Shown one piece after another: positions 22,349 to 63,750 of a DNA stretch of 64,000 nt. The position numbers and the translations under genes are program-made. The notes under the pieces were generated by a model. The model did no database searches. It saw nothing but the letters and a program-made list of their open reading frames with translations, and was not told the origin of the DNA. This DNA comes from Rhizobiales bacterium NRL2. GTDB lineage: Bacteria > Pseudomonadota > Alphaproteobacteria > Minwuiales > Minwuiaceae. The number at the start of each line of letters is the position of its first letter. Position 1 is the first letter of the stretch. Location: assembly GCA_001664005.1 (NCBI GenBank), contig CP016093.1, positions 3,897,031-3,961,030 on the forward strand, given 5' to 3'.

Positions 22349-22385
22349 CGTCAATCAGCTCCAGTCATTGTCGGACGGGGGGCGC

Positions 22386-23252
22386 TCAGACGGAATGCAG
22401 TTCCGCGACGCCGCAGGAGAGCACCGGGCGGCCGTCGGCGTTGACCGTGTCGAACTCTATCCCGTCGCCCGCCGCGCGGTGGCGGACGGTGATCGTCTCC
22501 CCGGGGATCACCATGCCCGTGAACCGGCAGGCGAAGCGCTTCAGCCGCCTGGGGTCGCCGCCGGCATGAGCCCGGATCACCCGGTCCATTGCCAGCGCCC
22601 AGGTGGCCGACCCGTGCAGGATGATATCGGGAAGGTCAGCGGCCAGCGCAACCAGCCGCTCGGTATGGATCGGGTTCCAGATCGGCCCGCCCTCGGAGTA
22701 GATGTGCGGCAGGTGGCGGGCGACGGGCACATCCGTCTTCGCCACCTGCCCTTCGTCGAGAGCGGCCGGCTGCAGCGCGCCGGCGGCGGAATCGCCGGCG
22801 CGGGAGCAGTCCAGCTCCCAGCCGCGCAACATGCCCGAATTGTAGCTGGTGAAGACCGGCGCGCCCTCCCCGTCCACGGTGTCGTAGCGGCAGGTCATCA
22901 GCACGCCGGCCCGGGTCTGACGCAGTACCTCCAGCCAGCCCGTGGTCGTCAGGGTCTCGCCCATGCGGGGCGGACGGTGATAGCGGCTGTCCTGCTCGGC
23001 GTGGACACCGACCTTTCGATACTGGGCCAGGGTCACGCCGATCAGTTCGGAGATCCGAACGCCATCGGCCAGCGGCCATTCGATGGCCGCACACATGGCC
23101 GGCATCATCTCCGCCCCGCCGGGCCGGGCGTCGTCCAGATAGCAGTCGTCGCCCAATTCCAGTCCGGCCGAATAGGCCAGGAGGCGCCTCGGTGTCAGCT
23201 CGGATTCGATCGTTCCGAGCTTCTCCCCCACGCGCGCGCTCGATATCCGCAT
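22386..23252 (-). CDS. MaoC-like double-hotdog dehydratase
   Basis: A 288-residue protein with two hotdog halves. The C-terminal half contains the conserved hydratase-type segment PIHTERLVALAADLP and LHGSATWALAMDRVI. The N-terminal half has the HRPPRMGETLTTTG pattern of FAS1-like dehydratase domains. It should hydrate or dehydrate an acyl-CoA. The start ATG at 23252 lies 16 bases after the stop of the TRAP large permease, and the CoA ligase gene follows 37 bases later. All are on one strand, so it probably acts on the acid brought in by that transporter. Confidence 0.82.
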   Translation of the reverse strand: MRISSARVGEKLGTIESELTPRRLLAYSAGLELGDDCYLDDARPGGAEMMPAMCAAIEWPLADGVRISELIGVTLAQYRKVGVHAEQDSRYHRPPRMGETLTTTGWLEVLRQTRAGVLMTCRYDTVDGEGAPVFTSYNSGMLRGWELDCSRAGDSAAGALQPAALDEGQVAKTDVPVARHLPHIYSEGGPIWNPIHTERLVALAADLPDIILHGSATWALAMDRVIRAHAGGDPRRLKRFACRFTGMVIPGETITVRHRAAGDGIEFDTVNADGRPVLSCGVAELHSV

Positions 23253-23268
23253 GTCCGTTCTCTCCCTC

Positions 23269-24576
23269 TCAGCCCAGCAGGTTCGGCAGGTAGAGAATGA
23301 TCTCGGGGAACGCGATGAGGGCGACGACGACGAACAGATCCGCCACAAGGAACCACGCGATGCCGCGGAAGATCAGCCCCGTCGACGCCAGGTCGCCCAC
23401 CACTCCCTTGATGACGAAGACGTTCAGGCCGATGGGCGGCGTGATCATCCCGATTTCCAGGAACTTGGTGAGCAGCACACCGAACCAGATCAGGCTGAAC
23501 CCGGCCGTGTCCAGAATCGGCAGCAGGATCGGCAGGGTCAGCAGCATCGCGCCGATCGGCTCCAGGAACATCCCCAGCAGCAGATAGATCAGCGAGATGC
23601 CGATCAGCAGCATCAGCGGATCCGCGCCGATGGCCGAGACGCTGTCGGACAGGTAGTCGCCGGCGCCGGAAAACGCCAGGAACCGTGTCAGCATGGAGGC
23701 CCCGATGGCGATGATGAACAGCGATGCCGAGGTCAGCAGCGTCTCCACCAGCGCGTCGCGGAAGCTGGCCCAGGTGAGCGAACCCTTCATCGCCGCGATG
23801 ATGGTCGCCAGCGCGGCGCCGACGGCGCCGGCCTCGCTGGGGGTGAAGGCGCCGGAGAACAGACCGCCGAAGACGCCGAGCATCAGCAGGAACACCGGCC
23901 AGGTTTCCCGCAATGCCAGGATCTTGTCGCGGAAGGTGACTTCCTCGTGAAGCGGCGGCGCAAGTTCGGGGTTCAGCTTGGCGCGGATCACGATCACCGC
24001 GATGTAGCCGAAGGTCGTCAGCAGACCGGCGCCGACGCCGCCCAGGAAGAGCTGGCTGATCGGCACTTCGGCGATGATGCCGTAGAGGATCATCAGGATC
24101 GATGGCGGAATCAGCGCCCCGATGGTGCCGGCTGCGGCCACCGTGCCCGTGGCCAGCGACGGCGCGTAGCGGTGACGCATCATCTCCGGCACCGCGATCC
24201 GGCCCATGGCGGCGGCGCAGGCGACCGAGGATCCGGTGACTGCGGCGAAGCCGGCGGCGCCGAAGACGGTGGCGATGGCGAGACCGCCGGGCAACCGCGA
24301 CAGCCACATCCGGGCGGCGTCGAACATGCCCTTGGTCAGGCCGGCATGGTAGCAGAGAAAGCCCATCAGCAGGAACATCGGTACCGAGCTGAGATGCCAG
24401 GAGGCGGCGAAGCTGTAGGGAATGACCCCCAGCGAACCCCAGGCGGCGCGATCGCCGACCAGAACCCAGATACCGAAGAAGGACACGCCGATCAGCGAGA
24501 CCCCGATGGGCACGCGCAGGGCGATGAGAGCGAGCAGGATGCCGATTCCGGCGAATCCGATCTGGACGTCAGACAG
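23269..24576 (-). CDS. dctM: TRAP transporter large permease DctM, CTG start
   Basis: A 435-residue, 11-13 helix permease that forms the translocation path of a TRAP carrier, with typical segments VTGSSVACAAAMGRIAVPEM and LIPPSILMILYGIIAEVP. Without an ATG or GTG in the right place, the best start is CTG at 24576: AGGAGG lies 6 bases before it, and the peptide then begins (M)SDVQIGFAGIGILLALIAL. This aligns residue for residue with the paralogue at 54342-55649 (MSDLQIGGLGLVILI), and both proteins are exactly 435 residues. The first conventional start (GTG, 24513) would remove most of the first helix. The dctQ stop is in the same frame four codons upstream. Confidence 0.88.
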   Translation of the reverse strand: MSDVQIGFAGIGILLALIALRVPIGVSLIGVSFFGIWVLVGDRAAWGSLGVIPYSFAASWHLSSVPMFLLMGFLCYHAGLTKGMFDAARMWLSRLPGGLAIATVFGAAGFAAVTGSSVACAAAMGRIAVPEMMRHRYAPSLATGTVAAAGTIGALIPPSILMILYGIIAEVPISQLFLGGVGAGLLTTFGYIAVIVIRAKLNPELAPPLHEEVTFRDKILALRETWPVFLLMLGVFGGLFSGAFTPSEAGAVGAALATIIAAMKGSLTWASFRDALVETLLTSASLFIIAIGASMLTRFLAFSGAGDYLSDSVSAIGADPLMLLIGISLIYLLLGMFLEPIGAMLLTLPILLPILDTAGFSLIWFGVLLTKFLEIGMITPPIGLNVFVIKGVVGDLASTGLIFRGIAWFLVADLFVVVALIAFPEIILYLPNLLG

Positions 24577-24585
24577 GGCGGCCTC

Positions 24586-25110
24586 CTATTCGGCGACGAT
24601 GTTTTCGGACCCGCCAGGCTGCGGGCGGCCGGAAAGATAGCTGGCGAAACGGAGCAGCAGCATCAGGACCATCAGTCCCGCGCCCAGCGGCAGCAGGAAG
24701 TGGCCGGGCCAGATCGGCACCTTGGTGCTCTGCTCCATGATGAAGGAGCCGAGATCGTACTTGTCGAGCGCGTCGAACAGGCTGCGATAGGTCAGCAGGC
24801 TGAAGATCACCGCCGAGTAGAGGCAGGTCCAGCCGTGAATGTGACGCTGCCAGCGCGGCGAGAACTGTTCGGTCAGCACTTCGACGGAGATGTGCGAGTT
24901 CCGCCGTTCGGTGAGCGCCAGCGGCAGGAACGCCACCACGACCATGTAGTAGTTCGAGACAAGCGTGATCGTCGCCGGCACGGGCAGGAAGAAGATGAAC
25001 TTGCCCACCACGTCGACCGTGATGTGGATCATCATCAGGACCACGGCGATCGCGCCGATGACCGTCGTCAGATTCGTGGCCCTGGCGAGCCACCTATCGA
25101 TGAAAGACAT
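24586..25110 (-). CDS. dctQ: TRAP transporter small permease DctQ
   Basis: A 174-residue membrane protein with four helices, at about residues 14-34, 47-65, 90-108 and 133-153. It has the RNSHISVEVL motif after helix 2, which is typical of DctQ. It pairs with the DctM encoded directly downstream; the TAG stop is in the same frame as dctM and separated from its CTG start by three codons. It closely resembles DctQ at 55649-56176 in layout. Confidence 0.92.
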   Translation of the reverse strand: MSFIDRWLARATNLTTVIGAIAVVLMMIHITVDVVGKFIFFLPVPATITLVSNYYMVVVAFLPLALTERRNSHISVEVLTEQFSPRWQRHIHGWTCLYSAVIFSLLTYRSLFDALDKYDLGSFIMEQSTKVPIWPGHFLLPLGAGLMVLMLLLRFASYLSGRPQPGGSENIVAE

Positions 25111-25193
25111 GTTGCGGTTCCGGAATTCGTGACGTTCTGGCCGGGGCGGCGGCAGGAGACGGCGGCATCAGCCGCCGCCTCTGCCGTTCGGCC

Positions 25194-26339
25194 TCAGTCC
25201 AGGCCGTAGGTCGTGAGGTCGACCTTCGACATGATCTCGTCCCAGTAGAGCTGGGCCAGGGCCTCAGGATCGTCGGCCATGTCCTTGGTCAGCTTCTTGT
25301 ACTTGTCGACGAGCTCCGCGACCTTTTCGATCTTCGCCTGGGCGTTGTCGACGCCGTAGTCATTGGTGAACTGTTCGGCGATCACCTTCAGATCGCTCTC
25401 CACGAATTCATTGGAGAATTTCACCATTTCCTCGGTCGGCTCGATGATCTCGATGCCCTTGTCCGGCGCGTCGTTGAGGTTGCGCTTCGCGTCGGCGTAG
25501 TACTTCCAGGTCACGTCGGCGTTCGAGCGCGCCGAGGCCTTGAAGATCACTTCGCGCTGTTCGGGCGTCAGATCGGCCCAGACGTCACGGTTGATGTTGT
25601 TGGTCGCAACGCCGGCGAAGACGCCGCCGGGAATCTTCGTGGTGATGTACTTGGTCACGTCGAAGAGCTGCAGGTTGGTCAGCTCGGTCGCCGAGAACAT
25701 GCCGCAGTCCACGACGCCCTGGGCCATCGCTTCGTAGATATCGTTGCCCGGCACCGAGACCTTGGTGCCGCCGACCGCCTCGGCCCAGCGGCCGAAATTG
25801 GCCGCGCCGGAACGGTATTTCTTGTTCTTCAGATCCGCCATCGTGCGGATCGGCGTCGTGCAATGGAGGATGTAGGTCGGGCTGGTGCCGGTGCCCAGAT
25901 AGACCTGGTTCATCCGCTTGTGCTCGGTGAGGCATTCGGGGCAATGCAGGAAGACATATTCCGTCATGGCTGCGCCCATGGCCGTCCCGGGGCTCTCGAT
26001 CTGCTCGCCGGTGGTCGCCAGCATGGAAAGATTCGCCGCCAGATTGGTTTCCGCGTATTCCGCAGGGTAATAGGGCGGGAGAACGAAGCCCATGTCGGCG
26101 ATGCCGTCACGGATGCCCGGCGGCGTCTCCTTCAGGTTCAGCAGCGAAAGCGCGAAGACCTTCGCCTTCATGTCGCTGTTCGCCTCGATGTTCTTCGCCA
26201 GATTGTCCAGCGCGTAGAACGCGGCGCTGCCCGGCGGAAAGCCGACCGCGATCTTCAGATCCTGGGCCTGCGCCGTCGCGGCGCCGCCCAGCATGGCTGC
26301 GCCCGCCGCCGCCATGATCATGCTCCGGATGTGCTTCAT
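25194..26339 (-). CDS. dctP: TRAP transporter solute-binding protein DctP
   Basis: A 381-residue periplasmic binding protein with signal peptide (MIMAAAGAAMLGGAATAQA). The DctP fold is shown by the segment IRTMADLKNKKYR, which contains the carboxylate-binding Arg region, and by VPGNDIYEAMAQGVVDCG. An unusual Cys pair (Cys133-Pro-Glu-Cys136) lies in the middle of the protein, and the second DctP in this window has an equivalent pair. The ligand is unknown but should be a carboxylate. It is the first gene of the run dctP-dctQ-dctM-dehydratase-CoA ligase. Confidence 0.92.
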   Translation of the reverse strand: MKHIRSMIMAAAGAAMLGGAATAQAQDLKIAVGFPPGSAAFYALDNLAKNIEANSDMKAKVFALSLLNLKETPPGIRDGIADMGFVLPPYYPAEYAETNLAANLSMLATTGEQIESPGTAMGAAMTEYVFLHCPECLTEHKRMNQVYLGTGTSPTYILHCTTPIRTMADLKNKKYRSGAANFGRWAEAVGGTKVSVPGNDIYEAMAQGVVDCGMFSATELTNLQLFDVTKYITTKIPGGVFAGVATNNINRDVWADLTPEQREVIFKASARSNADVTWKYYADAKRNLNDAPDKGIEIIEPTEEMVKFSNEFVESDLKVIAEQFTNDYGVDNAQAKIEKVAELVDKYKKLTKDMADDPEALAQLYWDEIMSKVDLTTYGLD

Positions 26340-50769: not shown

Positions 50770-53700
50770 CTACTCCGCCGCCTGAACGCCAGCCATCGGG
50801 TCGCGGAAGCTGGCGAGCAGCGCCTGCTCCTTGCGCTTCGCCTTCGCCACGTTGCGTTCCTTGACGTGCCCGAAACCGCGCATCTCCTCGGGCACCTCGG
50901 CGATCTGGACCGCCAGCCCGTGGTTGCCGGCATCAAGTTCGCTCAGCACGTTCTCGATCGTCGCCATGTAGTCGGCGATGAGCTGCCGCTCCATGCGGCG
51001 CTCCTCGGTGCGGCCGAAGATGTCGAAGCGCGTGCCCCGCAGCCCCTTCAGTTTCGCCAGCACGCGGAAGACATGGATCATCCAGGGGCCGTATTCGCGC
51101 TTCTGCAGCTCGCCCGTCTCCGGATCCCGCGCCGACGCGATGGGCGGCGCCAGATGGAACTTCAGGCGGTAACCGCCGGCGAACTGACGGCGGACCTTGG
51201 CCATGAAAGCCGGGTCCGTATAGAGCCGGGCGACTTCGTATTCGTCCTTGTAGGCCATCAGCCTGAACAGCGATCGGGCGACCGCTTCGGCCAGATCGGT
51301 CCGTCCTGGCGCCTTCGCCTTCTCGGCGGCGGCCACGCGCTCCACGAAGGTGCGGTAGCGGGCGGCATAGGCCGCATCCTGGTAGTCGGTGAGCCGGCGC
51401 ACGCGGTCGGCGACGATCTCCTCGAAGCCCTGCGGCCGCTTCTTCGGCGCAGTCTGCCTGGGCTCGGCGGCGGCGCGCACGGCGTCCGGGTCGTGAGCCG
51501 CCAGGCGGCCCCAGGAGAGCGCCTGCTTGTTGGCCTCGACGGCGACGCCGTTGATCTCGATGGCCCGCTCGATGGCCTCCAGGCTGAGCGGAATCAGACC
51601 CTTCTGCCAGGCGAAGCCGAGCAGGAAGGGGTTGGAGGAGATCGTGTCGCCCATGATCTGGCCGGCGAGGCTGGTGGCGTCGATGAAGTCGGCGTGGTCG
51701 TCGCCCAGGGCCTCGCGGATACGATCGGCCGATTCGGCTTCGCCGAGATCGATGTCGTTGTTCTGCACGAAGGCGGCGGTCGGCTGCACGGCGCTGTTGA
51801 GCACCGCGCGGGTGACCCCCTGCTCCATCGTCCCGATGGCCTTGGGGCTGGCCGCGACCACCATGTCGCAGCCGAGGATCACGTCGGCGCCGCCCGCGGC
51901 GATGCGGACGGCATGGATGTCCTCGGGCTCAGGCGCCAGGCGAACATGGCTCATCACCGCGCCGTTCTTCTGCGCCAGACCGGTGAAGTCCAGCGCCGTC
52001 GCACCGCGCCCCTCGACATGGGCGGCCATGGCAATCAGGGCGCCGACGGTAATCACGCCCGTGCCGCCGATGCCCGTGACCAGGATGCTGTAGGGCTCCG
52101 TCAGCTCCCGCCGCTCGGGCTCGGGCAGGCCGGCGAAGGGATCGGCCTCCGCGCCGACGACCTTGAGGTCCGGCTTGGGCGCGCGGCGAACACCGCCGCC
52201 CTCGATCGTGACAAAGCTGGGGCAGAATCCCTTCAAGCAGGAGAAGTCCTTGTTGCAGTCGGACTGATCGATGCGGCGCTTCCGGCCCAGATCCGTCTCC
52301 AGCGGCTTCACCGAGACGCAGTTGGACTGGACCGAGCAGTCGCCGCAGCCCTCACAGACCTCGTCGTTGATGAAGACCCGCTTCGCCGGGTCGGGAAAGG
52401 TGCCGCGCTTGCGCCGGCGGCGTTTCTCGGCGGCGCAGGTCTGATCGTAGATCAGCACCGTCAGTCCCGGCGTGCCCCTCAGCTCCTTCTGCACGGCGTT
52501 GAGTTCGTCGCGGTGATGGATGGTCACGCCCGGCGCCCAGTGGACGCCCATGGGGTACTTGTCGGGCTCGTCCGTGACGATGACGACGCGCTTCGCGCCC
52601 TCGTCATGAACCTGACGGCTGATGTCCCAGACGGTCAGCGGCCCGTCATGCTGCTGTCCGCCGGTCATGGCGACCGCGTCGTTGAACAGGATCTTGTAGG
52701 TGATGTTGACGCCGGCCGCGGCCGCAGCGCGGATCGCCAGCAGGCCGGAATGGTAGTAGGTGCCGTCACCCAGGTTCTGGAAGACGTGGGGTTCGTCGGT
52801 AAAGGGCGACTGGCCGATCCAGGTCACGCCCTCGGCGCCCATGTGGGACATGGTCTGCGTCCGGCGCTCGGGCATCCAGACGGCCATGCCGTGACAGCCG
52901 ATGCCGGCCATCGCGCGGCTGCCGTCAGGCACCTGCGTGGAGGTGTTGTGCGGGCAGCCGGAACAGAAATAGGGCGTGCGCACGGTCTTCGGCGGCGGCC
53001 CGTGCAGCGCCGCCTGCTTCGCCTCCATGCGGGCCAGCCGCTGGCGCAGGGCCGAATCCATCGCGCCACGCTTCTCCAGGCGGTCGGCGAGCACCCGCGC
53101 GACCATGCCGGGATCAATCTCACCGATCTTGCTGAGCAGCGGCGCGCCGGTCTCGTCGGCCTTGCCCACGACCACCGGACGGCGGTCCGCCGGCAGGTGA
53201 TAGAGCAGCTTCATGAGCTGGTCCTCGATCAGGCCGCGCTTCTCCTCGACGACGATGACCTCCTCCAGGCCCTCGGCGAAACCGAGCGCGCCTTCGCGCT
53301 CCAGCGGCCAGGTCATGGCGACCTTGTAGATGCGGACGCCGAGTTCGTTCAGGCGGCCCTCCGGCAGGCCGAGATCTTCCAGCGCCTGGCGCAGGTCCAT
53401 GTAGGCCTTGCCCGTGGAGATCACGCCGATGCGCGCCGGCCGGTCCGGTTCGAAGACGATACGGTCGATGTGGTTGGCGCGGGCGAAGGCGGCGACCGCT
53501 TCCAGCCGCGGCCCGTTCGCCAGCATCTCCGCGCCGGCCGGATCGTAGCCCAGGCGGATGTTCAGGCCGCCGGGGGGCATCTCGAAATCGTCCGGAATGA
53601 CGATCTGCAGGCGGTCGGGATTGACCCGGACCGAAGCGCTGGACTCGACGGTCTCCGAGATCGCCTTGAAGCCGATCCAGGCGCCCGAATAGCGCGACAT

Positions 53701-54264
53701 GGCGAAGCCCAGCAGGCCGAGATCGAGATAGTCCTGCACGCTCGCCGGATTCAGCACCGGCACCAGCGAGGCGATGAGAACCTGTTCCGACTGGTGCGGC
53801 AGCGTGGACGAGACTGCGCCATGGTCGTCACCGGCCATCAGCAGGACGCCGCCGGTTGCGCTCGCGCCGGCGTGGTTGCCGTGCTTGATAGCGTCGACGG
53901 AGCGGTCGACGCCCGGCCCCTTGCCGTACCAGATGCCGAAGACGCCGTCGTATTTCGCGCCGGGGAACAGATTGACCTGCTGGCTGCCCCAGACGGCGGT
54001 GACCCCCAGATCCTCGTTGACGCCGGGCTGGAAGTGGATGTGGTTCTGCTCCAGCAGGCTGCGGGCGTCCCAAAGCGCCTTGTCGTAGCCGCCGAGCGGG
54101 GAGCCGCGATAGCCGGAGATGAATCCGCCGGTGTTCAGCCCCTGCGCCAGATCGCGCTGACGCTGCATCAGCGGCAGCCGCACCAGCGCCTGCACCCCGT
54201 TGAGGAAGATGCGCCCGCTCTCCAGACGGTACTTGTCCCGCAGATCGACCTTCGCCAGTTCCAT
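50770..54264 (-). CDS. Indolepyruvate:ferredoxin oxidoreductase, fused alpha-beta
   Basis: An 1164-residue single-chain 2-oxoacid:ferredoxin oxidoreductase. It contains pyrimidine and TPP-binding domains (GIGCHGMAVWMPERR and FCSGCPHNTST regions), iron-sulfur ligands in CEGCGDCSVQSNC (about residue 640) and CNKDFSCLKGFC (about 670), and a C-terminal gamma-type domain (GIGGTGVITVGA, about 730). It decarboxylates aryl or branched 2-oxoacids to acyl-CoA, reducing ferredoxin. The long fused type occurs in aerobic alphaproteobacteria. ATG 54264 is preferred over 54297 because GGAGG lies upstream. It ends the long carboxylase/TRAP run, 77 bases after dctM. Confidence 0.93.
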   Translation of the reverse strand: MELAKVDLRDKYRLESGRIFLNGVQALVRLPLMQRQRDLAQGLNTGGFISGYRGSPLGGYDKALWDARSLLEQNHIHFQPGVNEDLGVTAVWGSQQVNLFPGAKYDGVFGIWYGKGPGVDRSVDAIKHGNHAGASATGGVLLMAGDDHGAVSSTLPHQSEQVLIASLVPVLNPASVQDYLDLGLLGFAMSRYSGAWIGFKAISETVESSASVRVNPDRLQIVIPDDFEMPPGGLNIRLGYDPAGAEMLANGPRLEAVAAFARANHIDRIVFEPDRPARIGVISTGKAYMDLRQALEDLGLPEGRLNELGVRIYKVAMTWPLEREGALGFAEGLEEVIVVEEKRGLIEDQLMKLLYHLPADRRPVVVGKADETGAPLLSKIGEIDPGMVARVLADRLEKRGAMDSALRQRLARMEAKQAALHGPPPKTVRTPYFCSGCPHNTSTQVPDGSRAMAGIGCHGMAVWMPERRTQTMSHMGAEGVTWIGQSPFTDEPHVFQNLGDGTYYHSGLLAIRAAAAAGVNITYKILFNDAVAMTGGQQHDGPLTVWDISRQVHDEGAKRVVIVTDEPDKYPMGVHWAPGVTIHHRDELNAVQKELRGTPGLTVLIYDQTCAAEKRRRRKRGTFPDPAKRVFINDEVCEGCGDCSVQSNCVSVKPLETDLGRKRRIDQSDCNKDFSCLKGFCPSFVTIEGGGVRRAPKPDLKVVGAEADPFAGLPEPERRELTEPYSILVTGIGGTGVITVGALIAMAAHVEGRGATALDFTGLAQKNGAVMSHVRLAPEPEDIHAVRIAAGGADVILGCDMVVAASPKAIGTMEQGVTRAVLNSAVQPTAAFVQNNDIDLGEAESADRIREALGDDHADFIDATSLAGQIMGDTISSNPFLLGFAWQKGLIPLSLEAIERAIEINGVAVEANKQALSWGRLAAHDPDAVRAAAEPRQTAPKKRPQGFEEIVADRVRRLTDYQDAAYAARYRTFVERVAAAEKAKAPGRTDLAEAVARSLFRLMAYKDEYEVARLYTDPAFMAKVRRQFAGGYRLKFHLAPPIASARDPETGELQKREYGPWMIHVFRVLAKLKGLRGTRFDIFGRTEERRMERQLIADYMATIENVLSELDAGNHGLAVQIAEVPEEMRGFGHVKERNVAKAKRKEQALLASFRDPMAGVQAAE

Positions 54265-54341
54265 GATCCCCGACCTCCCCAAGATTGGCTGCGACATACT
54301 AGACCGCGGTTCGCCGTTTGGCGAAGCGTGTCAGCAATGCC

Positions 54342-55649
54342 TCAGTAGAGGAGCTCCGGCAGGAAGAGCGTGATCTGCGGAAACCCGATCAGCAGGGCGA
54401 GGGTGATCAGGTCCGCGACCACGAACCAGAGGATGCCCTTGAAGATCACCTCTGTCTTGATGGCGTCGCCGACGATTCCCTTGATGACGAAGACGTTCAG
54501 ACCGACGGGCGGCGTGATCAGGCCGATCTCGAGATACTTGACGATCAGGATGCCGAACCAGATCAGGTCGATGCGAAGCGATTCCACCACCGGCAGGAAG
54601 ATCGGCAGCGTCAGCAGCATGATGCCCAGCGGGTCGAGGAACATGCCGAGCGCGAGATAGACCACCGAGATGCCGAGGATCAGCGCGATCTCGCTGATGC
54701 CCTCCGCCAGCACCACGTCCGCCAGGAAGTCGGAGACTCCCGCGAAGGCGAGGAAGCGCGTCAGCAGGTTGGCGCCGATGGCAATGATGAAGATGGCCGC
54801 CGTCGACTGCATGGCCTCCATCGTGGCGTCGCGCAGCCGGGCCCAGTTGAGCGACCGCTTCAGAAAGGCGATCACGATAGACAGCGCCGCGCCGATCGCG
54901 CCCGCCTCGGTCGGTGTGAAGACGCCGCCGAACAGGCCGCCGAAGACGCCGATCACCAGCAGGATCACCGGCCAGGTGTCGTAGAAGGCGTAGAAGCGGT
55001 CGCGCCAGGAAATCTGCTCGTGGACGGAGGGCGCAAGCGATGGCGTCGCCTTCACGCGGAGATAGATCATCAGCGCGAACATGAACGCGGTGAGTATGCC
55101 CGGCAGGAAGCCGCCCACGAACAGCTTGCCGATGGGCACTTCGGCAAAGATGCCGAAGATCAGCAGCAGGATGCTGGGCGGTATCAGCGAGCCGATGGTG
55201 CCGGCCGCGGCGACGGAGCCGGCGGCCAGCCCCTTGTCGTACTTCGCCTTGAGCATCTCGGGCACGGCGATTCGGCCCATGGCGGCGGCGCAGGCGACCG
55301 AGGAGCCGGTCACCGCCGAGAAGCCGGCGGCGCCGCCCACGGAGGCGATGGCGAGGCCGCCCGGCAGGGCCGACAGCCAGTAACGCGCCAGCCGGAACAG
55401 CGATTCCGTCAGATTTGCGTGGTAGCAGACATAGCCCATGAGCAGGAACATCGGCACCGAACTCAGCGTCCAGTGCGCCACCAGTTCGTAGGGCACCGCG
55501 GTGACGATGCCCAGCGTCGGCTTCAGACCCAGAAGGGTGTAGATGCCGACGAGGGAGACGCCGCCCAGCGCAATGCCCACCGGCACCCGGGCGAGCAGCA
55601 GCATGATGAGGATGACGAGGCCGAGCCCGCCGATCTGAAGGTCGGACAT
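54342..55649 (-). CDS. dctM: TRAP transporter large permease DctM (second system)
   Basis: A 435-residue permease of about a dozen helices with segments VTGSSVACAAAMGRIAVPEM and SLIPPSILLLIFGIFAEVP. It is a clear paralogue of the DctM at 23269-24576, of identical length, but has a normal ATG overlapping the dctQ stop. It forms the translocation unit of the TRAP system in the carboxylase operon. Confidence 0.94.
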   Translation of the reverse strand: MSDLQIGGLGLVILIMLLLARVPVGIALGGVSLVGIYTLLGLKPTLGIVTAVPYELVAHWTLSSVPMFLLMGYVCYHANLTESLFRLARYWLSALPGGLAIASVGGAAGFSAVTGSSVACAAAMGRIAVPEMLKAKYDKGLAAGSVAAAGTIGSLIPPSILLLIFGIFAEVPIGKLFVGGFLPGILTAFMFALMIYLRVKATPSLAPSVHEQISWRDRFYAFYDTWPVILLVIGVFGGLFGGVFTPTEAGAIGAALSIVIAFLKRSLNWARLRDATMEAMQSTAAIFIIAIGANLLTRFLAFAGVSDFLADVVLAEGISEIALILGISVVYLALGMFLDPLGIMLLTLPIFLPVVESLRIDLIWFGILIVKYLEIGLITPPVGLNVFVIKGIVGDAIKTEVIFKGILWFVVADLITLALLIGFPQITLFLPELLY

Positions 55650-56176
55650 CAGGCTTCGTCCAGTTCGACTGATTCATTGCCTTCCTGGATCAGGCGCTCC
55701 GCGCCGCGGAACATCATGATGGCTTTCCAGAGAAGGACGAGAGTGAGGAGGCCGCAACCGAGCGGCACGAAGAAGCGGGTCTGCCAGATCTCCAGCGGCA
55801 CGGTGCCGTAGAGATACTCGCCGATCTCGTACTTGTTGACCGCATCGTGCCAGGTGCGCGCGGTCAGGATGGAGAAGTAGACCACCCCCAGCAGGGAAAC
55901 CACGCCGATCAGGATCCGGCGAATCCTCGGCGCCAGATACTGCGAGACGATCTCCACCGTGATGTGACCGTTGCGCAGTTCGACCGCCGCCAGCGGAAAG
56001 AACACCACCGCCACCATGTAGTAGTGCGAGGTCATTTCGATGGTCACGGGCAGAGGCAGGCCGAGAAGCCATTTGCCGGCCACGTCGATACTGACGTGAA
56101 GCAGCATGGCGAACATGCCGAGCATGCCGATCCAGCCGAAGACCCTGGCCAGGATCCTGAGCGTCCTCTCGATCAT
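55649..56176 (-). CDS. dctQ: TRAP transporter small permease DctQ (second system)
   Basis: A 175-residue, four-helix membrane protein with the DctQ segment ELRNGHITVEIVSQYL after helix 2. Its stop overlaps the dctM start, and dctP lies 92 bases upstream. Layout and sequence pattern parallel the DctQ at 24586-25110. Confidence 0.92.
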   Translation of the reverse strand: MIERTLRILARVFGWIGMLGMFAMLLHVSIDVAGKWLLGLPLPVTIEMTSHYYMVAVVFFPLAAVELRNGHITVEIVSQYLAPRIRRILIGVVSLLGVVYFSILTARTWHDAVNKYEIGEYLYGTVPLEIWQTRFFVPLGCGLLTLVLLWKAIMMFRGAERLIQEGNESVELDEA

Positions 56177-56268
56177 TGCGTTCTCCTCCCCTGTACGGCG
56201 GCAGGGCGGGCCGCCCGGGTGGCGCCCCGCCCCATCGTCATCGCCGGTCCGGCACGAGGCCGGTCCGC

Positions 56269-57402
56269 CTACATGCCGTAGGTCGAGACGTCGACCTTCG
56301 AGATCACGTCGGTCTTGAAGCGCTCACGCAGCGCATCGACATCGCCGTCGACCTCTTCGTAGATCTGCGTCCACTTGTCGACGAGCGCGCTCATCTTCTC
56401 GATCAGCGGCTCGGGGTTCTCGATGCCACGGGTTCCCTTGCCCTTCTCGACGAGGCCGGCCTTCTCCGCGGCGACGTACTCATCGCGGATCGCCTTGAAT
56501 TCGTCGGAGATCTCCTGCACGCGGATGCCCTTGGCCTTGCTCTCTTCCAGCGCTTCCCGGTCCGTCGCCATGTAGCCGGCGGCGATGCCGAAATTGGCGT
56601 CGGACGCTTCCTCCAGCATGATGCGGCGCTGCTCGTCGGTCAGCGCGGCCCAGCTGTCGGGGTTGAACGCGAAGGTGTTGATCGCGCGGTAGGCGCCGAC
56701 GTTCACCAGCAGCACGTCCTTGGTCATGTCCCACAGGCCGTAGGTCTTGAGCGAGGCGGCCACGTGGAAGGAAGCGTCGACGACGCCGCGGCTCTGCGCC
56801 TCGTACTGCTCGGACGAGGGCACGTTGACCGGCGTCGCGCCGACGGCCTTGACGAAGTTGTCCCAGGCTGCGCCGGCCGAGCGGATCTTCAGGCCTTCGA
56901 TGTCTTCGGGGCTGTCGATCATCTTCGACGACATGATCACCATCGGCGGCACCGCGTAGGTGCCGGTGTAGACGTTGCCGCGCTGCTTGTACTCCTCGCG
57001 GCAGGGCTCGCACTGGGTCAGGATCAGTTCGGTCGTCGCCGCAGTGACGATCAGCGCGTTGGTGCCGATCGCGGCCATGTCGTTGATGAAGGCCGTGTGC
57101 GGAAACTCCGCCGGATGGTAGCCGACGATGACGTAGCCCAGATCGACCACGCCGTCGCGGATACCCTCGGACGCCGCCTTCGGGCCGAGCAGCGAACCGC
57201 CGAGGAACAGCTTCACGGTCACTTCGCCGCCTGTCCGCTCCTTCACGGCTTCGGCAAAGGGTTCCCAGCCGTCGGCGACGGTGTTGTTCTTGGGCGGCAG
57301 ATGAACGGAGGCCTTCAGCTCCTTCGCCGCCGCGCCACCCGCGACGCCGGCGGCCATGCCGGCGGCGAGAGCGATCGCCGTCAGATGTTTCATGTAGGTC
57401 AT
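56269..57402 (-). CDS. dctP: TRAP transporter solute-binding protein DctP (second system)
   Basis: A 377-residue exported binding protein (signal peptide AIALAAGMAAGVAGGAAA). DctP family segments DSPEDIEGLKIRSAGAAWDN and VPSSEQYEAQSRGVVDASFH are visible. It has a Cys131-Glu-Pro-Cys134 pair at the same place as the pair in the first DctP. The substrate should be an organic acid used by the neighbouring ligase and carboxyltransferases. The ATG at 57402 has GGGGAG upstream. Confidence 0.92.
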   Translation of the reverse strand: MTYMKHLTAIALAAGMAAGVAGGAAAKELKASVHLPPKNNTVADGWEPFAEAVKERTGGEVTVKLFLGGSLLGPKAASEGIRDGVVDLGYVIVGYHPAEFPHTAFINDMAAIGTNALIVTAATTELILTQCEPCREEYKQRGNVYTGTYAVPPMVIMSSKMIDSPEDIEGLKIRSAGAAWDNFVKAVGATPVNVPSSEQYEAQSRGVVDASFHVAASLKTYGLWDMTKDVLLVNVGAYRAINTFAFNPDSWAALTDEQRRIMLEEASDANFGIAAGYMATDREALEESKAKGIRVQEISDEFKAIRDEYVAAEKAGLVEKGKGTRGIENPEPLIEKMSALVDKWTQIYEEVDGDVDALRERFKTDVISKVDVSTYGM

Positions 57403-57466
57403 CGGTTTTCTCCCCTGTCTCAGGATTGGCCCGGGACTTCTCGCCCCGGGGTCTTGTTTGCCCGGT

Positions 57467-59005
57467 TCAGAACGGCTCGATGCTCCGCTTCCTTGTGGTG
57501 CGCTCGGGCGGGCGCGGAAAGGTGCCAAGGGTGCGGATCAGGATGTCACGCGTCTCCGCCGGATCGATGACATCATCGAAGCCGAAGCGTTCGCCGACGC
57601 GCAGCGAGGTGTTGTAGGCCTTGAGTTCGTCGGTGTAGTCGCGGTGCGCCTGGGCGCGGGCCGCCGGATCCTCGATGGCCGCCAGTTCCTTCTGGAAGAT
57701 GATGCTGGCCGCGCCTTCCAGGCCCATGCCGCCGAACTCCGCGGTCGGCCAGGCCAGCAGGATCGCCGGCGTCAGCGGGCGCGAGCCCATGATGTAGTAG
57801 CCCAGCCCGTAGGCCTTGCGCAGCACGACCGTCATCAGCGGCACGGTGGCGTTGGCGAGCGCCGAGAGCAACCGTGCGCTGCGGCGGACCAGGCAGGTCT
57901 GCTCGATTTCCGGGCCGACCATCAGACCCGGCGTGTCACAGAGCAGCAGGATCGGGATGTCGTAGGCGTCGCAGATCTGGACGAAGCGCGCCGCCTTCTC
58001 GCAGGCCGGGCCATCCATCGCGCCGGCCATGAACATCGGCTGGTTGGCGATGACGCCGACCGTCTGCCCGCCCATCCGGGTCAGCGCCGTGACCATGGCG
58101 CGGCCGTAGGCGGGCTTCAGCTCCAGCATCTGATCGCCGTCGGCCATGACCTCGATGACCTTGCGCACGTCATAGGCTCGGCGCGGGCTTTCCGGCACCA
58201 TCTCGCGCAGCTTCGTCTGGTCCTGGGCCGTGACGGTCTCCTGCGGGCCGCTGAAGAAGGAGAGATACTTCTTCGCCAGCGCGCAGGCTTCCCGTTCGTC
58301 CTCGGCCAGCAGGTCGATGGCCCCGGACTTGTAGTGCACTTCGGCCGGTCCGATCTCCTCGGGTGTCAGCTTCACGCCCAGCGCAGCCTCCACCAGCGGC
58401 GGCCCCGCCATGCCCATGGAGGCGTTCTTCGTCGCGATGGCGACATCGCAGAGTCCGGCCAGGTTGGCGTGACCGGCGAAGGCCCGGCCGGGCACGATAC
58501 CGACGGTCGGCGCCTGTCCCGAAAGCCGGGAGAAGGTCACGAAGGTCGGTGAGCCGAGCCGGTTCGGCACGAACATGTCGTGCGGACGCGCGCCGCCGCC
58601 GTCCAGCCAGCAGATCACCGGCAGGCGCTGCTTCTCGGCAAACTCGAACATCCGGCTGATCTTCGTGTGGTTCACCGCGCTCTGGGTGCCCGCGTAGACG
58701 GTATAGTCATAGGCGACCATGACGACAGGCCGGCCGTCGACCGCACCGGTCCCCGTCACAAGCCCGTCGGCCGCGCCGGACATGCCCTCGGTCGCGGGCT
58801 TCGCCAGCGCGCCGTATTCGACCAGGCTGTCCGGGTCCAGCATGCCGGCGATGCCCTCCCGCGCCGTCCAGCGCCCGCGGGCATGCTGCTTGTCGACGGC
58901 GGCCGTCCGCGCCTCGTCGCGCGTCGCCTGGCGCGCCTCCAGGATCTGGCGCAGCGCCTCGCGGATCTCGCCGGTCTCGCCGGGCATGGGTTCGTGTCGG
59001 TTCAT
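57467..59005 (-). CDS. Acyl-CoA carboxylase carboxyltransferase (first copy)
   Basis: A 512-residue biotin-dependent carboxyltransferase with both crotonase-like halves in one chain, as in propionyl-CoA carboxylase beta or MmdA. Segments include LPVICWLDGGGARPHD (N half) and LLLCDTPGLMVGPEIE, then AWPTAEFGGMGLEGAA (C half). It transfers CO2 from biotin on a carrier to an acyl-CoA, or the reverse. It lies between the ligase gene (25 bases upstream) and dctP. It is a paralogue of the carboxyltransferase at 60763-62325; no biotin carboxylase is nearby. Confidence 0.9.
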   Translation of the reverse strand: MNRHEPMPGETGEIREALRQILEARQATRDEARTAAVDKQHARGRWTAREGIAGMLDPDSLVEYGALAKPATEGMSGAADGLVTGTGAVDGRPVVMVAYDYTVYAGTQSAVNHTKISRMFEFAEKQRLPVICWLDGGGARPHDMFVPNRLGSPTFVTFSRLSGQAPTVGIVPGRAFAGHANLAGLCDVAIATKNASMGMAGPPLVEAALGVKLTPEEIGPAEVHYKSGAIDLLAEDEREACALAKKYLSFFSGPQETVTAQDQTKLREMVPESPRRAYDVRKVIEVMADGDQMLELKPAYGRAMVTALTRMGGQTVGVIANQPMFMAGAMDGPACEKAARFVQICDAYDIPILLLCDTPGLMVGPEIEQTCLVRRSARLLSALANATVPLMTVVLRKAYGLGYYIMGSRPLTPAILLAWPTAEFGGMGLEGAASIIFQKELAAIEDPAARAQAHRDYTDELKAYNTSLRVGERFGFDDVIDPAETRDILIRTLGTFPRPPERTTRKRSIEPF

Positions 59006-59030
59006 CGTGTTCGGTTCCGCTCCTTCGGCT

Positions 59031-60665
59031 TCAGGCCGCGCCGATGCGGTCGCGGCGGATCTTCACGCCCGCCGCCTCGCGGTCCCAGGTGTCTTCCGTC
59101 ACGCCCTCGGCGCGCAGCAGATGCTTCTGGACCTTCTGCGTCGGCGTCTTGGGCAGGTCGTCCATGACCCGGATGAAGCGCGGGATCATGAAGTGCGCCA
59201 TGCGGGGCTGGAGGAAATCCAGCAGCGCCGCCGGATCCACCGACCGCCCCGGCACGGGCGCGACGACGACGAGCACCTCGTCCTCCGAGAACTCGCTGGG
59301 CACGGCCACCGCGGCGCTCTCCCGCACATCCGGGTGCGCGTTGACCTCGTTCTCCACCTCGAACGACGAGATGTTCTCGCCGCGGCGGCGGATCGCGTCC
59401 TTGGCCCGGTCCAGGAAATAGAAGGTCCCGTCGGCGTCCTTGCGGAACATGTCGCCGGTGTGGAACCAGCCGTTGCGCCAGGCTTTCGCCGTGGCTTCCG
59501 GATTGTTGTTGTAGCCGTGGTTGAGGCCCCAGGGGCGCTCCTCGCGGACGATCATCTCGCCGATTTCGCCGACCGGCACCTCGCAATCGTTCGCGTCGAC
59601 CAGCCGGACCTCGGCGCCGGGCCGCACCTTGCCGCAGGAACCGACCTTCTGCGGGTTCCGCTCCGACATCAGCTGGCACGAGATCTCGGTCATGTTGAAG
59701 GTGGTGTAGACGTCGAGTCCGAAGCGCTGAGTGAAGGCCGTGACGTCCTCCGACAGCGGCACCATGAAGACGGTGCGCAGCGGGTGGTCATGGTCGCGCG
59801 GGCTGGGGTCCGCCTTCATCAGGAAGGGCGTCATCGCGCCGAGCAGGGTCACGCAGGTGGAGCCGGATTCGCGCACCGTGTCCCAGAACGTGTCCGTCTT
59901 GAAGCTGTCGACCAGCGCGATGGAGCCGCCCTTGGCCAGCATGCCATAGCTGTTGCCCGTGCCACCGGCATGAAACAGCGGCAGGTTGATCAGCCGCCGG
60001 TCCGTGTGGTCCAGCATCGGCCGGGCGCTCGTCGCCATGGTGAAAAGGTGCAGGTACGACGACAGCACACCCTTGGACGGTCCCGTCGTGCCGGACGTGT
60101 AGATGATCGACTGCAGGTCCCAGGGATCGATCGGCCGCTCCAGCGGCGCCGGCTCGTCGCCTGGCGCGCCCAACGCGTCCTCCGGTTCCACCGGCAGGCG
60201 GTCGAAATCCGTCTCACCGCCGACAACGATCAGCCGTTCCAGCTTTGCCAGGTCGATGTCGGAAAGCCGCTCGACCAGATCGGCGTGCACGATCATCAGC
60301 TTCGCGTCCGAATTGCGGACGACGTGCTCCAGCAGCGCGCCGCGATAGGCGGTGTTGATGGGGACGTAGGCCGCACCGACGTAGTTGATGCCGAACCAGC
60401 AGCGCAGCATCAGCGGCCCGTTGGGCAGCCAGACCAGCACACGGTCGTCGCGCGCGACGCCGATCTTCTGCAGGCCGGCGCCGGTGCGGGCGGCTTCGGA
60501 CCGCGTTCGGGCATAGTCCCACAACTCGCCGCCCTCGAACCAGGCGAAGGGCGCATCCGGCGTCGCCTCGGCATGCCGGTCCAGGATATGGCGCAGCACG
60601 CAGCGGTCGCGGTTCGGGATGCGCGGGTCGCTGAACTCGCCCGCTTCGCTGACCTGCTGGTTCAC
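59031..60665 (-). CDS. Acyl-CoA synthetase (AMP-forming) of the carboxylase operon
   Basis: A 544-residue ligase with P-loop IIYTSGTTGPSKGVLSS, hinge region HTGDMFR, RAKDAIRRRGENISSFEVE and the C-terminal catalytic lysine in PTQKVQKHLLR. It is a close paralogue of the ligase at 20690-22348. The likely start is GTG 60665, preceded by GGGGAGGAG; an ATG at 60680 in the same frame lies before that ribosome binding site. It sits between the two carboxyltransferases, so its product is their probable substrate. Confidence 0.9.
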   Translation of the reverse strand: MNQQVSEAGEFSDPRIPNRDRCVLRHILDRHAEATPDAPFAWFEGGELWDYARTRSEAARTGAGLQKIGVARDDRVLVWLPNGPLMLRCWFGINYVGAAYVPINTAYRGALLEHVVRNSDAKLMIVHADLVERLSDIDLAKLERLIVVGGETDFDRLPVEPEDALGAPGDEPAPLERPIDPWDLQSIIYTSGTTGPSKGVLSSYLHLFTMATSARPMLDHTDRRLINLPLFHAGGTGNSYGMLAKGGSIALVDSFKTDTFWDTVRESGSTCVTLLGAMTPFLMKADPSPRDHDHPLRTVFMVPLSEDVTAFTQRFGLDVYTTFNMTEISCQLMSERNPQKVGSCGKVRPGAEVRLVDANDCEVPVGEIGEMIVREERPWGLNHGYNNNPEATAKAWRNGWFHTGDMFRKDADGTFYFLDRAKDAIRRRGENISSFEVENEVNAHPDVRESAAVAVPSEFSEDEVLVVVAPVPGRSVDPAALLDFLQPRMAHFMIPRFIRVMDDLPKTPTQKVQKHLLRAEGVTEDTWDREAAGVKIRRDRIGAA

Positions 60666-60762
60666 GTCGCTCCTCCCCATTGTCGTTCCCTTGTCGGCCT
60701 GGACGGCCGGCGCCTCCCCTTGCGCCGACCGCCCACCGGGCCTCTCCGCTCCCCAGCGGAAC

Positions 60763-62325
60763 TCAGATCGGCGAGATCGATCTCACCTTCGGCGGCACGT
60801 TGTTCTCCCGGCGGCGCGGCGCGCGCGCCAGGACCTCCACCAGACGCCGGCGGGTGTCTTCCGGCGCCACGATGTCGTCGATGCCGAAGCCCTCGGCCCC
60901 GCGCAGCGGGCTGACCCGCGCGCGCATCTCCGCGATCAGTTCCTGGCGTTTCGCATCCGGATCCTCGGCCTGCTCGATCTGCTTGCGGTAGGCGACATTG
61001 GCCGCGCCCTCCAGCGACATGGCGCAGATCTCCGAGGTCGGCCAGGCCAGCGCCGCGTCGGCATCGAAGCTGCGCCCGCCGCACATGGCGATGTAGCCCA
61101 GGCCATAGCCCTTGCGCAGGACGATGGAGACCCGCGGCACCGTGGCGTGACCCAGTTCATAGATCATCCGCGCGCTGCGCCGGCCCAGCTGCGAACGCTC
61201 GGCAGACGAGCCGATGGAAAATCCCGGCACGTCGATGAGGTAGACCAGCGGCAGGCCGAAGGCGTCGCAGATGGCGACGAAGTGCGAGATCTTCTCGCAG
61301 GCCGGCGAGGTCAGCATGCCGCCCAGATGCATCGGCTGGTTGGCGATGACGCCGACCGGCCGGCCCTCCAGCCGGGCGAAGGCGGTGATGGCGTTCTTCG
61401 CATAGGTAGGCTTGATCTCGAAGACGCTGCCCGTGTCGGCGAAACCCCTGATCACCCGGCGGACGTCATAGGCCTTGCGGGTGTCGGCCGGCACCATGGC
61501 CGCCAGCTTGTCCTGATCGCCGCTCTCGCCGCCCTCGGTTTCGGGCGGCGTCATCCGCGCATTGGTCGGCAGGAAGGACAGATAGCGCTTCACCGCGTCC
61601 AGCGCTTCGGCTTCCGTCTCCACGCCCAGATCGGCCAGCCCGTGCCGGTCGACCTGAACCTCCGCGCCGCCCAGCGACTGGATGTCGATATCCTCGCCCG
61701 TGCCCGCCTTGACCAGCGCCGGCCCGGCGAGGCCCATGCAGGCCTGACCGCGCACCATGACGACGAAATCCGACATGCCGGCGTAGTTGGTCGGACCGGC
61801 GAAGCCCGCGCCCATCATCGCCGAAACCACCGGCACCCAGCCGGAGATGCGGGCGAGATTGTGGAACATGGGGGAACCGTTGGCGAAGTGCCGCGAATCC
61901 TGGCCGTCCTGGATACGGTGACCGCCGCCGTCCAGCAGGAAGATCATCGGGCAGCCCTCACGGATCGCCTGCTCGACGGCGCGGCGCAGCTTGGCGCTGC
62001 CCAGCTTGCCGCTGCTGCCGCCGTGGACGGTGAAATCCTGCGCGGCGATCACGACCGGGCGGCCGTCGATCCGCGCGCCGCCGGTGACCACGCCGTCCGC
62101 GGGCCGCGAGTCGCGGTCGCCGCCGTCATCGCAGACCAGCGCCCCGATCTCCCGGAAACTGCCTTCGTCGACCAGACAGGCGATGCGCTGGCGCGCGGTC
62201 ATTTCCGCGCGGCGAAGCATGCGCTCGACCGCCCGGGGGCGGCTTTCGTCGCTCAGCGCTTCGCGCGCCGCCGCAATCGCCGCTTCCGCCTCGGCCCCGC
62301 TTCTGTGCGGCATCGGATTGGACAT
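60763..62325 (-). CDS. Acyl-CoA carboxylase carboxyltransferase (second copy)
   Basis: A 520-residue biotin-dependent carboxyltransferase. Segments include MIFLLDGGGHRIQDGQ (where most relatives have GGAR), YLIDVPGFSIGSSAE and AWPTSEICAMSLEGAA. It follows the stand-alone biotin carrier gene by 7 bases, so the two very likely work together. It differs from the copy at 57467-59005 in the N-terminal oxyanion region, which suggests a different acyl-CoA. Confidence 0.9.
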   Translation of the reverse strand: MSNPMPHRSGAEAEAAIAAAREALSDESRPRAVERMLRRAEMTARQRIACLVDEGSFREIGALVCDDGGDRDSRPADGVVTGGARIDGRPVVIAAQDFTVHGGSSGKLGSAKLRRAVEQAIREGCPMIFLLDGGGHRIQDGQDSRHFANGSPMFHNLARISGWVPVVSAMMGAGFAGPTNYAGMSDFVVMVRGQACMGLAGPALVKAGTGEDIDIQSLGGAEVQVDRHGLADLGVETEAEALDAVKRYLSFLPTNARMTPPETEGGESGDQDKLAAMVPADTRKAYDVRRVIRGFADTGSVFEIKPTYAKNAITAFARLEGRPVGVIANQPMHLGGMLTSPACEKISHFVAICDAFGLPLVYLIDVPGFSIGSSAERSQLGRRSARMIYELGHATVPRVSIVLRKGYGLGYIAMCGGRSFDADAALAWPTSEICAMSLEGAANVAYRKQIEQAEDPDAKRQELIAEMRARVSPLRGAEGFGIDDIVAPEDTRRRLVEVLARAPRRRENNVPPKVRSISPI

Positions 62326-62332
62326 GATGACC

Positions 62333-62545
62333 TCAGCTCTCCAGCCGGACCACGATCTGGCCTTCCTGGACGCTCTCGGCTTCCTCGACCAGGATCTCGG
62401 CGATGCGCCCCGCCGCGGGGGCCATGACCGGGATTTCCATCTTCATCGATTCAAGGATGAGGATTTCCTCGTCCTCTTCCACCGCGTCACCGACGGCGGC
62501 CACGATCTTCCACACCTTGCCGGCGATTTCCGATTTGACGTCCAT
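62333..62545 (-). CDS. Stand-alone biotin carboxyl carrier protein
   Basis: A 70-residue biotinyl domain and nothing else. The biotin attachment motif ESMKMEIP places the modified lysine at position 35, and the flanks (VGDAVEEDEEILIL, GRIAEILVEEAESV) are those of the biotin/lipoyl hammerhead. In classic carboxylases this domain is fused to biotin carboxylase or carries an N-terminal linker as in AccB; here it is free. It is the gene directly before the second carboxyltransferase. Confidence 0.93.
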   Translation of the reverse strand: MDVKSEIAGKVWKIVAAVGDAVEEDEEILILESMKMEIPVMAPAAGRIAEILVEEAESVQEGQIVVRLES

Positions 62546-62593
62546 GTACCTTCTCCCAACGTGGCGCGGCTCCCGGCGGCGCCCGAAATTCCA

Positions 62594-63217
62594 TCAATGT
62601 GCGGCCAGAACCTGCCGGAACATGCCCACGAGGTCGTCGCGGGCGCTGTCCAGGTCGGTCTTGCCGCCGTCGACCAGCGCCTGGACGATGACGCCGCGCA
62701 CTGCGCCCAGGATCATGGTGGCAAAGCGTTCGATATCGACGTCCGCGCGCAGCTCGCCCAGTTCCCGGGCCTCCTGCAGGTGGCGGCGGAAGCCCTCCCG
62801 ATAGCCTTCGCCCAGCGCCCTCATGCGCGGCTTCAGCTCCGATGCGGAGCCCATGGACTCCACATAGAGCTGGTAGACCGCAACGGTCGCGGGCGCGCTG
62901 TCGCGGGCGCCGGCCATGTGTGCGCCCATGCGCACGAACAGCGCGTCCAGACCGCGCCTGTCGCCCAACGCCTTCGCCAGGCGGCGCTGGAACCAGGCGT
63001 CGCAGGTGTCGACCACGGCCTCCAGCAGCGCCTGCTTGGTGCCGAAGCGCGCCACCGGCAGGCCGCGGCTGTAGCCCGATTCCGTGCCGATCTGCGCCAG
63101 GCTGCAGCCCGCCGATCCGTTCCGCGCGATAAGGCGGAGCGCCGCGGCGATCATCTTCCTGTCCGACTGGGCCCGCCTTTCGGTCTGGCTGCGGCGCGGC
63201 TGTGGAGCGTCTGGCAA
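62594..63217 (-). CDS. TetR/AcrR family regulator
   Basis: A 207-residue regulator with an N-terminal helix-turn-helix (MIAAALRLIARNGSAGCSLA, then GYSRGLPVARFGTKQALLE). The C-terminal ligand/dimer region is of the TetR_C acyl-CoA-pathway type. The probable start is TTG 63217: the open frame extends to 63292, but the extra codons cover a palindromic operator. It lies 48 bases before the biotin carrier gene on the same strand, so it probably controls its own operon in response to a pathway acyl-CoA. Confidence 0.85.
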   Translation of the reverse strand: MPDAPQPRRSQTERRAQSDRKMIAAALRLIARNGSAGCSLAQIGTESGYSRGLPVARFGTKQALLEAVVDTCDAWFQRRLAKALGDRRGLDALFVRMGAHMAGARDSAPATVAVYQLYVESMGSASELKPRMRALGEGYREGFRRHLQEARELGELRADVDIERFATMILGAVRGVIVQALVDGGKTDLDSARDDLVGMFRQVLAAH

Positions 63218-63227
63218 GGGTGAACCT

Positions 63228-63249
63228 ATTTGCTTGTTGACCAGCAAAT
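63228..63249. promoter_or_regulatory. Palindromic operator upstream of the TetR gene
   Basis: ATTTGCT (63228-63234) and AGCAAAT (63243-63249) form an exact inverted repeat with an 8-base centre, in an AT-rich patch 10 bases before the TTG start. Size and position fit an autoregulatory TetR operator that would control the operon downstream. Confidence 0.6.
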
Positions 63250-63339
63250 ATAAGGCAGAAGAAACGGGCGCTGGCAACCGTGGATCAGCCATGCGTCAAA
63301 CGCCTGATCGATCGTCCAGTCAGATCAGGGAGATAGCGG

Positions 63340-63750
63340 TCAGACGACCGGCTCGGCGAAGTATCGCGCGGCCCCGCCGGAGAGTTTTTCCGCGTCGGCC
63401 TGGAACAGTTCCAGCAGCACGCCGTCCGGCGCGGGGCACATGATGTACTTCCAGGCGCCGAAGTCCCGGATGCCGCTCCGGAAGGCGACGCCCGCCGCAC
63501 GCAGCCGCGCTTCCAGCGATTCCAGGTCGTCGGTGCGGATGCCGATGTGGTGGACGGCGCCACGGCCCTGGTCGCGCGGCGGCTGTTCGTAGATGTGCAG
63601 CCGCCCGCCGCCGACGCGCATGAAGACGTTGCGTGCCCCGCCGAAATCGTCGTCGAAGGCGACCTCGCCGCCCAGCATGTCCCGCCACCAGGCGACGGTC
63701 GCATCGATGTCGGACGAGAAAATGTGGACGTGATGAAGCTGCTCGGTCAT
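63340..63750 (-). CDS. VOC family (glyoxalase-fold) protein
   Basis: A 136-residue metal-binding VOC protein made of two beta-alpha-beta-beta-beta units. Likely metal ligands are the His cluster at the N-terminus (LHHVHIF), Glu in RLHIYEQ, His in AVHHIGIRTDD and Glu in VLLELFQ. VOC enzymes include methylmalonyl-CoA epimerase, glyoxalase and dioxygenases. An epimerase would suit the carboxylase operon, but the sequence does not prove it. It lies 122 bases upstream of the TetR gene on the same strand. Confidence 0.82.
   Translation of the reverse strand: MTEQLHHVHIFSSDIDATVAWWRDMLGGEVAFDDDFGGARNVFMRVGGGRLHIYEQPPRDQGRGAVHHIGIRTDDLESLEARLRAAGVAFRSGIRDFGAWKYIMCPAPDGVLLELFQADAEKLSGGAARYFAEPVV

Follow-up and report, generated by a model that had tools for sequence, protein, structure and literature searches.

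Acyl-CoA carboxylases are usually described with a biotin carboxylase (BC) and a biotin carrier that are fused or co-encoded. In the Propionibacterium transcarboxylase (subunits 12S, 5S and 1.3S), the carrier is kept apart from two carboxyltransferases (CTs), the second of which (5S) is a keto-acid CT, and there is no BC. Here, a 64,000-nucleotide stretch of the Rhizobiales bacterium NRL2 genome (contig CP016093.1, positions 3,897,031 to 3,961,030; hereafter the window) was analyzed, in which a minus-strand cluster encodes a free biotin carrier, two CTs (CT1 and CT2), an acyl-CoA ligase and a TRAP importer. No BC was found in the 64-kb window. The reading we favor, and consider fairly likely, is that the cluster encodes a split, substrate-dedicated acyl-CoA carboxylase whose BC is supplied in trans.

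Like the Propionibacterium transcarboxylase, the cluster has a separate carrier, two CTs and no local BC, but both of its CTs are acyl-CoA CTs (PF01039) and the close relatives of CT1 are linked to BC. The closest solved structure to the carrier is Bacillus BLAP (1z6h; NF006079), a single domain of ~70 aa whose gene in Bacillus adjoins a BC gene; against the BLAP profile the carrier scored 81.8 bits, below the cut-off of 95. CT2 groups with the CT domains of the single-chain acyl-CoA carboxylases (LCC/YCC; 4rcn and 5fif), and single-chain members of the CT2 clade also adjoin AMP-binding ligases, TetR regulators and solute importers. Compared to these enzymes, the cluster is without BC, its 70-aa carrier is encoded separately and its CTs are free-standing (CT2, 512 aa). 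Carboxylase activity is documented for multidomain bacterial relatives (PMC6491548). Among the actinobacterial enzymes, mycobacterial AccD4 and AccD5 each interact with AccA3 and with one another (PMC4347857), and the stambomycin carboxyltransferase MccB, encoded with the probable fatty acyl-CoA ligase SamR0482, uses a primary-metabolism alpha subunit (PMC5187497), which provides a published precedent for BC in trans. In these systems (AccA3 with AccD4/AccD5; AccA2 with MccB) several CTs share one BC-BCCP encoded elsewhere and the carrier is fused to BC, whereas in the cluster studied here the CTs are accompanied by the carrier but not by a BC. A free-carrier set without BC would be a variation on these known carboxylases. 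No description of this gene set was found in literature searches.

Pfam and NCBIfam profile matches identified the genes below, and all those named in an earlier note on this DNA (VOC, TetR, carrier, CT1, ligase, CT2 and DctPQM) lie on the minus strand where it had placed them.

63340..63750, minus strand: VOC/glyoxalase-fold protein (136 aa; PF00903)
62594..63292, minus strand: TetR/AcrR-family regulator (start uncertain; 63154 is a possible start)
62333..62545, minus strand: free single-domain biotin carrier (70 aa; Biotin_lipoyl PF00364, 60.9 bits; ESMKME biotinylation motif)
60763..62325, minus strand: CT1, acyl-CoA carboxyltransferase (520 aa; PF01039, 404 bits)
59031..60680, minus strand: acyl-CoA ligase, AMP-forming (549 aa; AMP-binding match)
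57467..59005, minus strand: CT2, acyl-CoA carboxyltransferase (512 aa; PF01039, 363 bits)
56269..57402, minus strand: DctP, TRAP solute-binding protein (377 aa; Pfam/NCBIfam)
55649..56176, minus strand: DctQ, TRAP small permease (Pfam/NCBIfam)
54342..55649, minus strand: DctM, TRAP large permease (Pfam/NCBIfam)
50770..54297, minus strand: indolepyruvate ferredoxin oxidoreductase family protein (1175 aa; 44 bp past DctM)

The profile matches, together with 44% identity between CT1 and CT2, bear out the earlier description of a 70-residue carrier and two paralogous CTs around a ligase. The MKM motif of the carrier (ESMKME) is canonical and predicts its biotinylation, and the TRAP set is complete (DctP, DctQ and DctM). 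From VOC to DctM the intergenic gaps are 47, 48, 7, 82, 25, 64, 92 and -1 bp, the carrier gene ending 7 bp ahead of CT1. No terminator-like sites were found on the minus strand within the cluster, and sigma-70 site predictions across it were uninformative. This spacing without an internal terminator is compatible with a single transcript, and the cluster may thus be transcribed as an operon. A role of the VOC protein as methylmalonyl-CoA epimerase was rejected (30.1 bits against a cut-off of 114.95).

The relatives of both CTs point to a partnership with BC. CT1-clade proteins (59-65% identity) were present in all seven CT2-holding outside genomes that were searched. Three of these genomes (G831, G803 and G767) each encode one CT1-clade protein in a single frame with BC. 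These BC-BCCP-CT1 fusions have predicted lengths of 1095-1101 aa, contain BC, Biotin_lipoyl and Carboxyl_trans domains (Pfam), and their CT parts are ~62% identical to CT1. In G831 and G803 the fusions adjoin a member of the ligase family (60 and 57% identical, respectively) and a protein resembling a solute-binding protein; no ligase was called alongside the G767 fusion, which is the sole close CT1-clade protein of that genome. The BC parts of the fusions are nearest to the BCs of single-chain carboxylases. In a 57-row tree (quick search, SH-aLRT support only, methylcrotonyl/geranyl-type CTs as outgroup), the fusions nest among free CT1s in a 13-row group with support of 99, and free CT2s form one 26-row group with single-chain CTs with support of 100. 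In Rhodococcus opacus PD630, a CT1 homologue (55%) lies 8 bp from a gene for a 582-aa BC-carrier protein (BC-BCCP), and two AMP-binding proteins and a single-chain carboxylase (CT 44% identical to CT2) are encoded nearby. Among solved structures, CT2 is nearest to the single-chain enzymes 5fif and 4rcn, and the best PDB match of CT1 is the 12S transcarboxylase subunit. By sequence, CT1 and CT2 are both closely related to enzymes whose partner is BC.

Most of the gene set is also found in a second alphaproteobacterial family, where an ABC importer takes the place of TRAP. When 398 genomes of the phylum were searched with CT2, a single free orthologue was returned, in G243 (65%), and searches of the class and of the family of G243 added more. 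A 26-kb contig of G243 carries CT1 (61%), a free carrier (51%), the ligase (58%), CT2 (65%) and a branched-chain-type ABC importer, and no BC was found on it. A TetR-carrier-ligase-CT2 run lies opposite the same kind of importer in G831, ligase-CT1 plus CT2 stand beside a branched-chain-type ABC importer in G796, and TetR-ligase-CT2 is found by an ABC importer, without adjacent CT1, in G803 and G767. A second locus in G803 holds a ligase, CT1, a TetR-like regulator, a carrier, another CT and a second ligase. The loci of G831, G796, G803 and G767 were additionally checked for carrier and BC by tblastn, and none of the split loci described here yielded a BC. TetR homologues (45-48%) precede ligase-CT2 there, and ligase homologues 56-82% identical accompany CT1 or CT2 in other genomes. 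Judged by gene content, the importer is exchangeable (TRAP or ABC), and what stays constant is the ligase, a CT and, in many cases, the carrier. That these ligase, CT and carrier families repeatedly occur together, with either type of importer, supports the proposal of the earlier note that these genes form a dedicated cassette for import, CoA activation and carboxyl transfer.

Closer to home, eight further genomes from the genus and family (G001-G008), some of them fragmented, were searched; here, as in the more distant relatives, genes were called with a simple codon-usage script, so that short ones may have been missed, and were named by BLAST against the window proteins and by eye. Carrier, CT1 and CT2 occur together in five of the eight (G001-G004 and G006), with the ligase between CT1 and CT2 in G001-G004 and none called in the fragmented G006; the set was not found at the thresholds used in G005, G007 and G008. 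TetR homologues (48-64%) precede the carrier in congeners, and no BC was found at the cluster locus in any of them. G004 is 97-100% identical through DctM and includes the VOC and oxidoreductase genes. In G001 and G002, the TRAP genes differ (DctP 26-30%, DctM 59%), an extra ligase lies upstream, a TAXI-like periplasmic binding protein (by eye) lies downstream, and neither VOC nor oxidoreductase is at the locus. Since gene content varies in this way among congeners, the core is carrier-CT1-ligase-CT2 with TetR, and the VOC, the oxidoreductase and the particular TRAP importer are accessory. The VOC gene was at the locus only in G004; the same held for the oxidoreductase, which was rejected as a core member and is probably outside the set. 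With carrier, CT1 and CT2 kept in five congeners and recurring in another family, comparison of gene order indicates that the cluster is not a chance arrangement.

A paralogous TRAP and ligase module is encoded on the minus strand at 20690-26339 of the window (ligase 58%, DctM 60%, DctQ 39% and DctP 30% identical to those of the cluster), with a probable MaoC-type dehydratase (by eye) in between; a carboxyltransferase is not part of this module. The DctM of the module shares 65% identity with the cluster DctM of G001, compared to 59% for the DctM of the cluster under study. At the window end and beyond (L059, 12821-16416), genes adjoining the cluster encode, by eye, a SulP-like transporter, a metallo-beta-lactamase-fold protein, an ArsR-type regulator and a rhodanese-like protein, and are possibly a sulfur-handling island.

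Genome-wide family searches were made on the single 4.70 Mb contig and confirmed that BC, reported missing from the window, is encoded elsewhere: seven BC genes were counted, of which the one at 3,602,524 is nearest, ~350 kb from the cluster. They comprise AccC, a 486-aa BC, three BC-carrier fusions of 655-671 aa, a pyruvate-carboxylase-sized protein of 1150 aa and a single-chain carboxylase of 1125 aa. The search for a BC without its own carrier domain, as had been suggested, thus yielded two of the seven, AccC and the 486-aa BC, the latter with a separate carrier and CT of its own at its locus (L045). The genome holds 13 full-length PF01039 matches, counting one inside the single-chain enzyme, and two further partial matches resemble AccA and AccD. 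Around ~7 of the CTs (L048-L054), neither BC nor carrier was found in the surrounding 18 kb; one of these (L049) is 53-54% identical to CT1 and kept in five congeners. Biotin_lipoyl matches number 14 and include two free mini-carriers. The second of these (73 aa; G000:C1:4427468-4427671, L044 8463-8684) is 63% identical to the window carrier, with no BC or carboxyltransferase seen near it; it is kept across the genus, even in G005, where the cluster is missing, and has 57-61% homologues in G008 and G243.

In the split carboxylase that we favor, DctPQM would import an organic acid and the AMP-forming ligase would convert it to its CoA ester. The free 70-aa carrier would be loaded with CO2 by an ATP-dependent BC encoded elsewhere, and CT1 and/or CT2 would use the resulting carboxybiotin to carboxylate the acyl-CoA at its alpha carbon, so that the product would be a malonyl-type 2-carboxyacyl-CoA. 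The TetR protein probably regulates the cluster. Carboxylation is the presumed direction of the reaction, and the alpha position is suggested by the placement of both CTs apart from the methylcrotonyl/geranyl-type outgroup. The two CTs probably reflect two acyl-CoA specificities or a mixed complex. A substrate call from the ligase or DctP was rejected, as their nearest solved relatives are distant and mixed, and nothing useful was found in the literature on the ligand of the top DctP match, 4p56.

Supply of BC in trans, the first of two options in the earlier note, is favored because BC is fused to, or encoded next to, close relatives of CT1 and because CT2 groups with single-chain carboxylases. 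As the same BC gap recurs in relatives, the cluster most likely relies on a BC whose gene lies elsewhere in the genome, and every genome searched for BC genes had them. G000, studied here, and G003, the two complete genomes that hold the set, share five BC orthologues that are 72-85% identical; AccC, as the only carrier-free one among them, is the simplest candidate for loading the carrier. The 486-aa BC was rejected as a dedicated partner, having its own carrier and CT, and is not set-specific, as 54-55% relatives were also seen in G005, a genome without the set. These relatives are lone 492-aa BCs beside an enoyl-CoA hydratase-like gene in G003, G001 and G005 (L137, L139, L142), with no carrier or carboxyltransferase seen within 5-6 kb. 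The BC of the single-chain enzyme is the closest in the genome to the CT1-fused BCs (52-56%); it was rejected as a general supplier, as G003, a complete genome that holds the set, showed no BC of the single-chain LCC type. Two observations weigh against a split carboxylase. In neither family did any genome with the free-carrier set show a BC at the locus, so that no genetic tie to a particular BC emerged, and the co-occurrence of CT1-clade proteins with CT2 in all seven outside genomes would also be predicted by a coupled two-CT system.

Such a system was the other option of the earlier note, a transcarboxylase with two CTs sharing one carrier. One CT would draw CO2 from a malonyl-type CoA ester of the imported acid, the carrier would ferry it and the other CT would load it onto a second acyl-CoA, with no need for ATP or BC. 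Two divergent CTs kept in the genus with one free carrier and no local BC would fit this scheme, as would the 12S subunit as best PDB match of CT1 and the 1.3S subunit as the carrier's next match after BLAP, although both are generic family matches. It is harder to reconcile with the ligase-CT2 pairs found without adjacent CT1 in several genomes, with the BC fused or adjacent to close CT1 relatives, including the only one in G767, and with the absence from the locus of a 5S-like keto-acid CT. The idea is not needed to account for the cluster and gained no positive evidence, but the two CTs did co-occur in every outside genome checked; we regard it as unlikely, and as equally unlikely its evolutionary form, in which an acyl-CoA:acyl-CoA transcarboxylase with two CTs sharing the 70-residue carrier arose from a BC-coupled carboxylase by loss of BC.

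The least probable reading is that the CTs work backwards, as a decarboxylase: a substituted malonate would be imported and activated to its CoA ester, its carboxyl group would pass to biotin, and the carboxybiotin so formed would be discharged by a reversed BC or decay. CT reactions are in principle reversible and organic anions are imported by TRAP systems, and methylmalonyl-CoA decarboxylase alpha (TIGR01117, mmdA) is the top NCBIfam match of both CTs. However, CT1 and CT2 score 422 and 335 bits, respectively, against a cut-off of 998.8, and their scores to malonate decarboxylase beta profiles are likewise far under the cut-off. The family search found no OAD_beta match in the genome, and hence no sodium-pump subunit; a sodium-pumping decarboxylase was rejected on this basis. 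It also seems improbable that one CT is catalytic with the carrier while the other is structural or unrelated, the neighbors forming two or more independent units. The variable transporter type and the absence of VOC and oxidoreductase from the locus in most congeners would agree with this, and CT1 has a proline at the second glycine of the AGGA motif of the 12S subunit. The single-chain enzymes 5fif and 4rcn likewise lack that glycine (AGNA), however, both CTs retain the RKxYGLGY motif, and the order carrier-CT1-ligase-CT2 is kept in the genus.

Overall, in two alphaproteobacterial families a free carrier travels with CTs, a ligase and an importer but without BC, while close relatives are fused to BC. 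This natural series from fused to split enzymes makes it possible to ask which BC loads the free carrier and whether the module works without one. With ~7 further CTs and a second free carrier in the same genome, the question may extend to many orphan carboxyltransferases that are named only by their domain.

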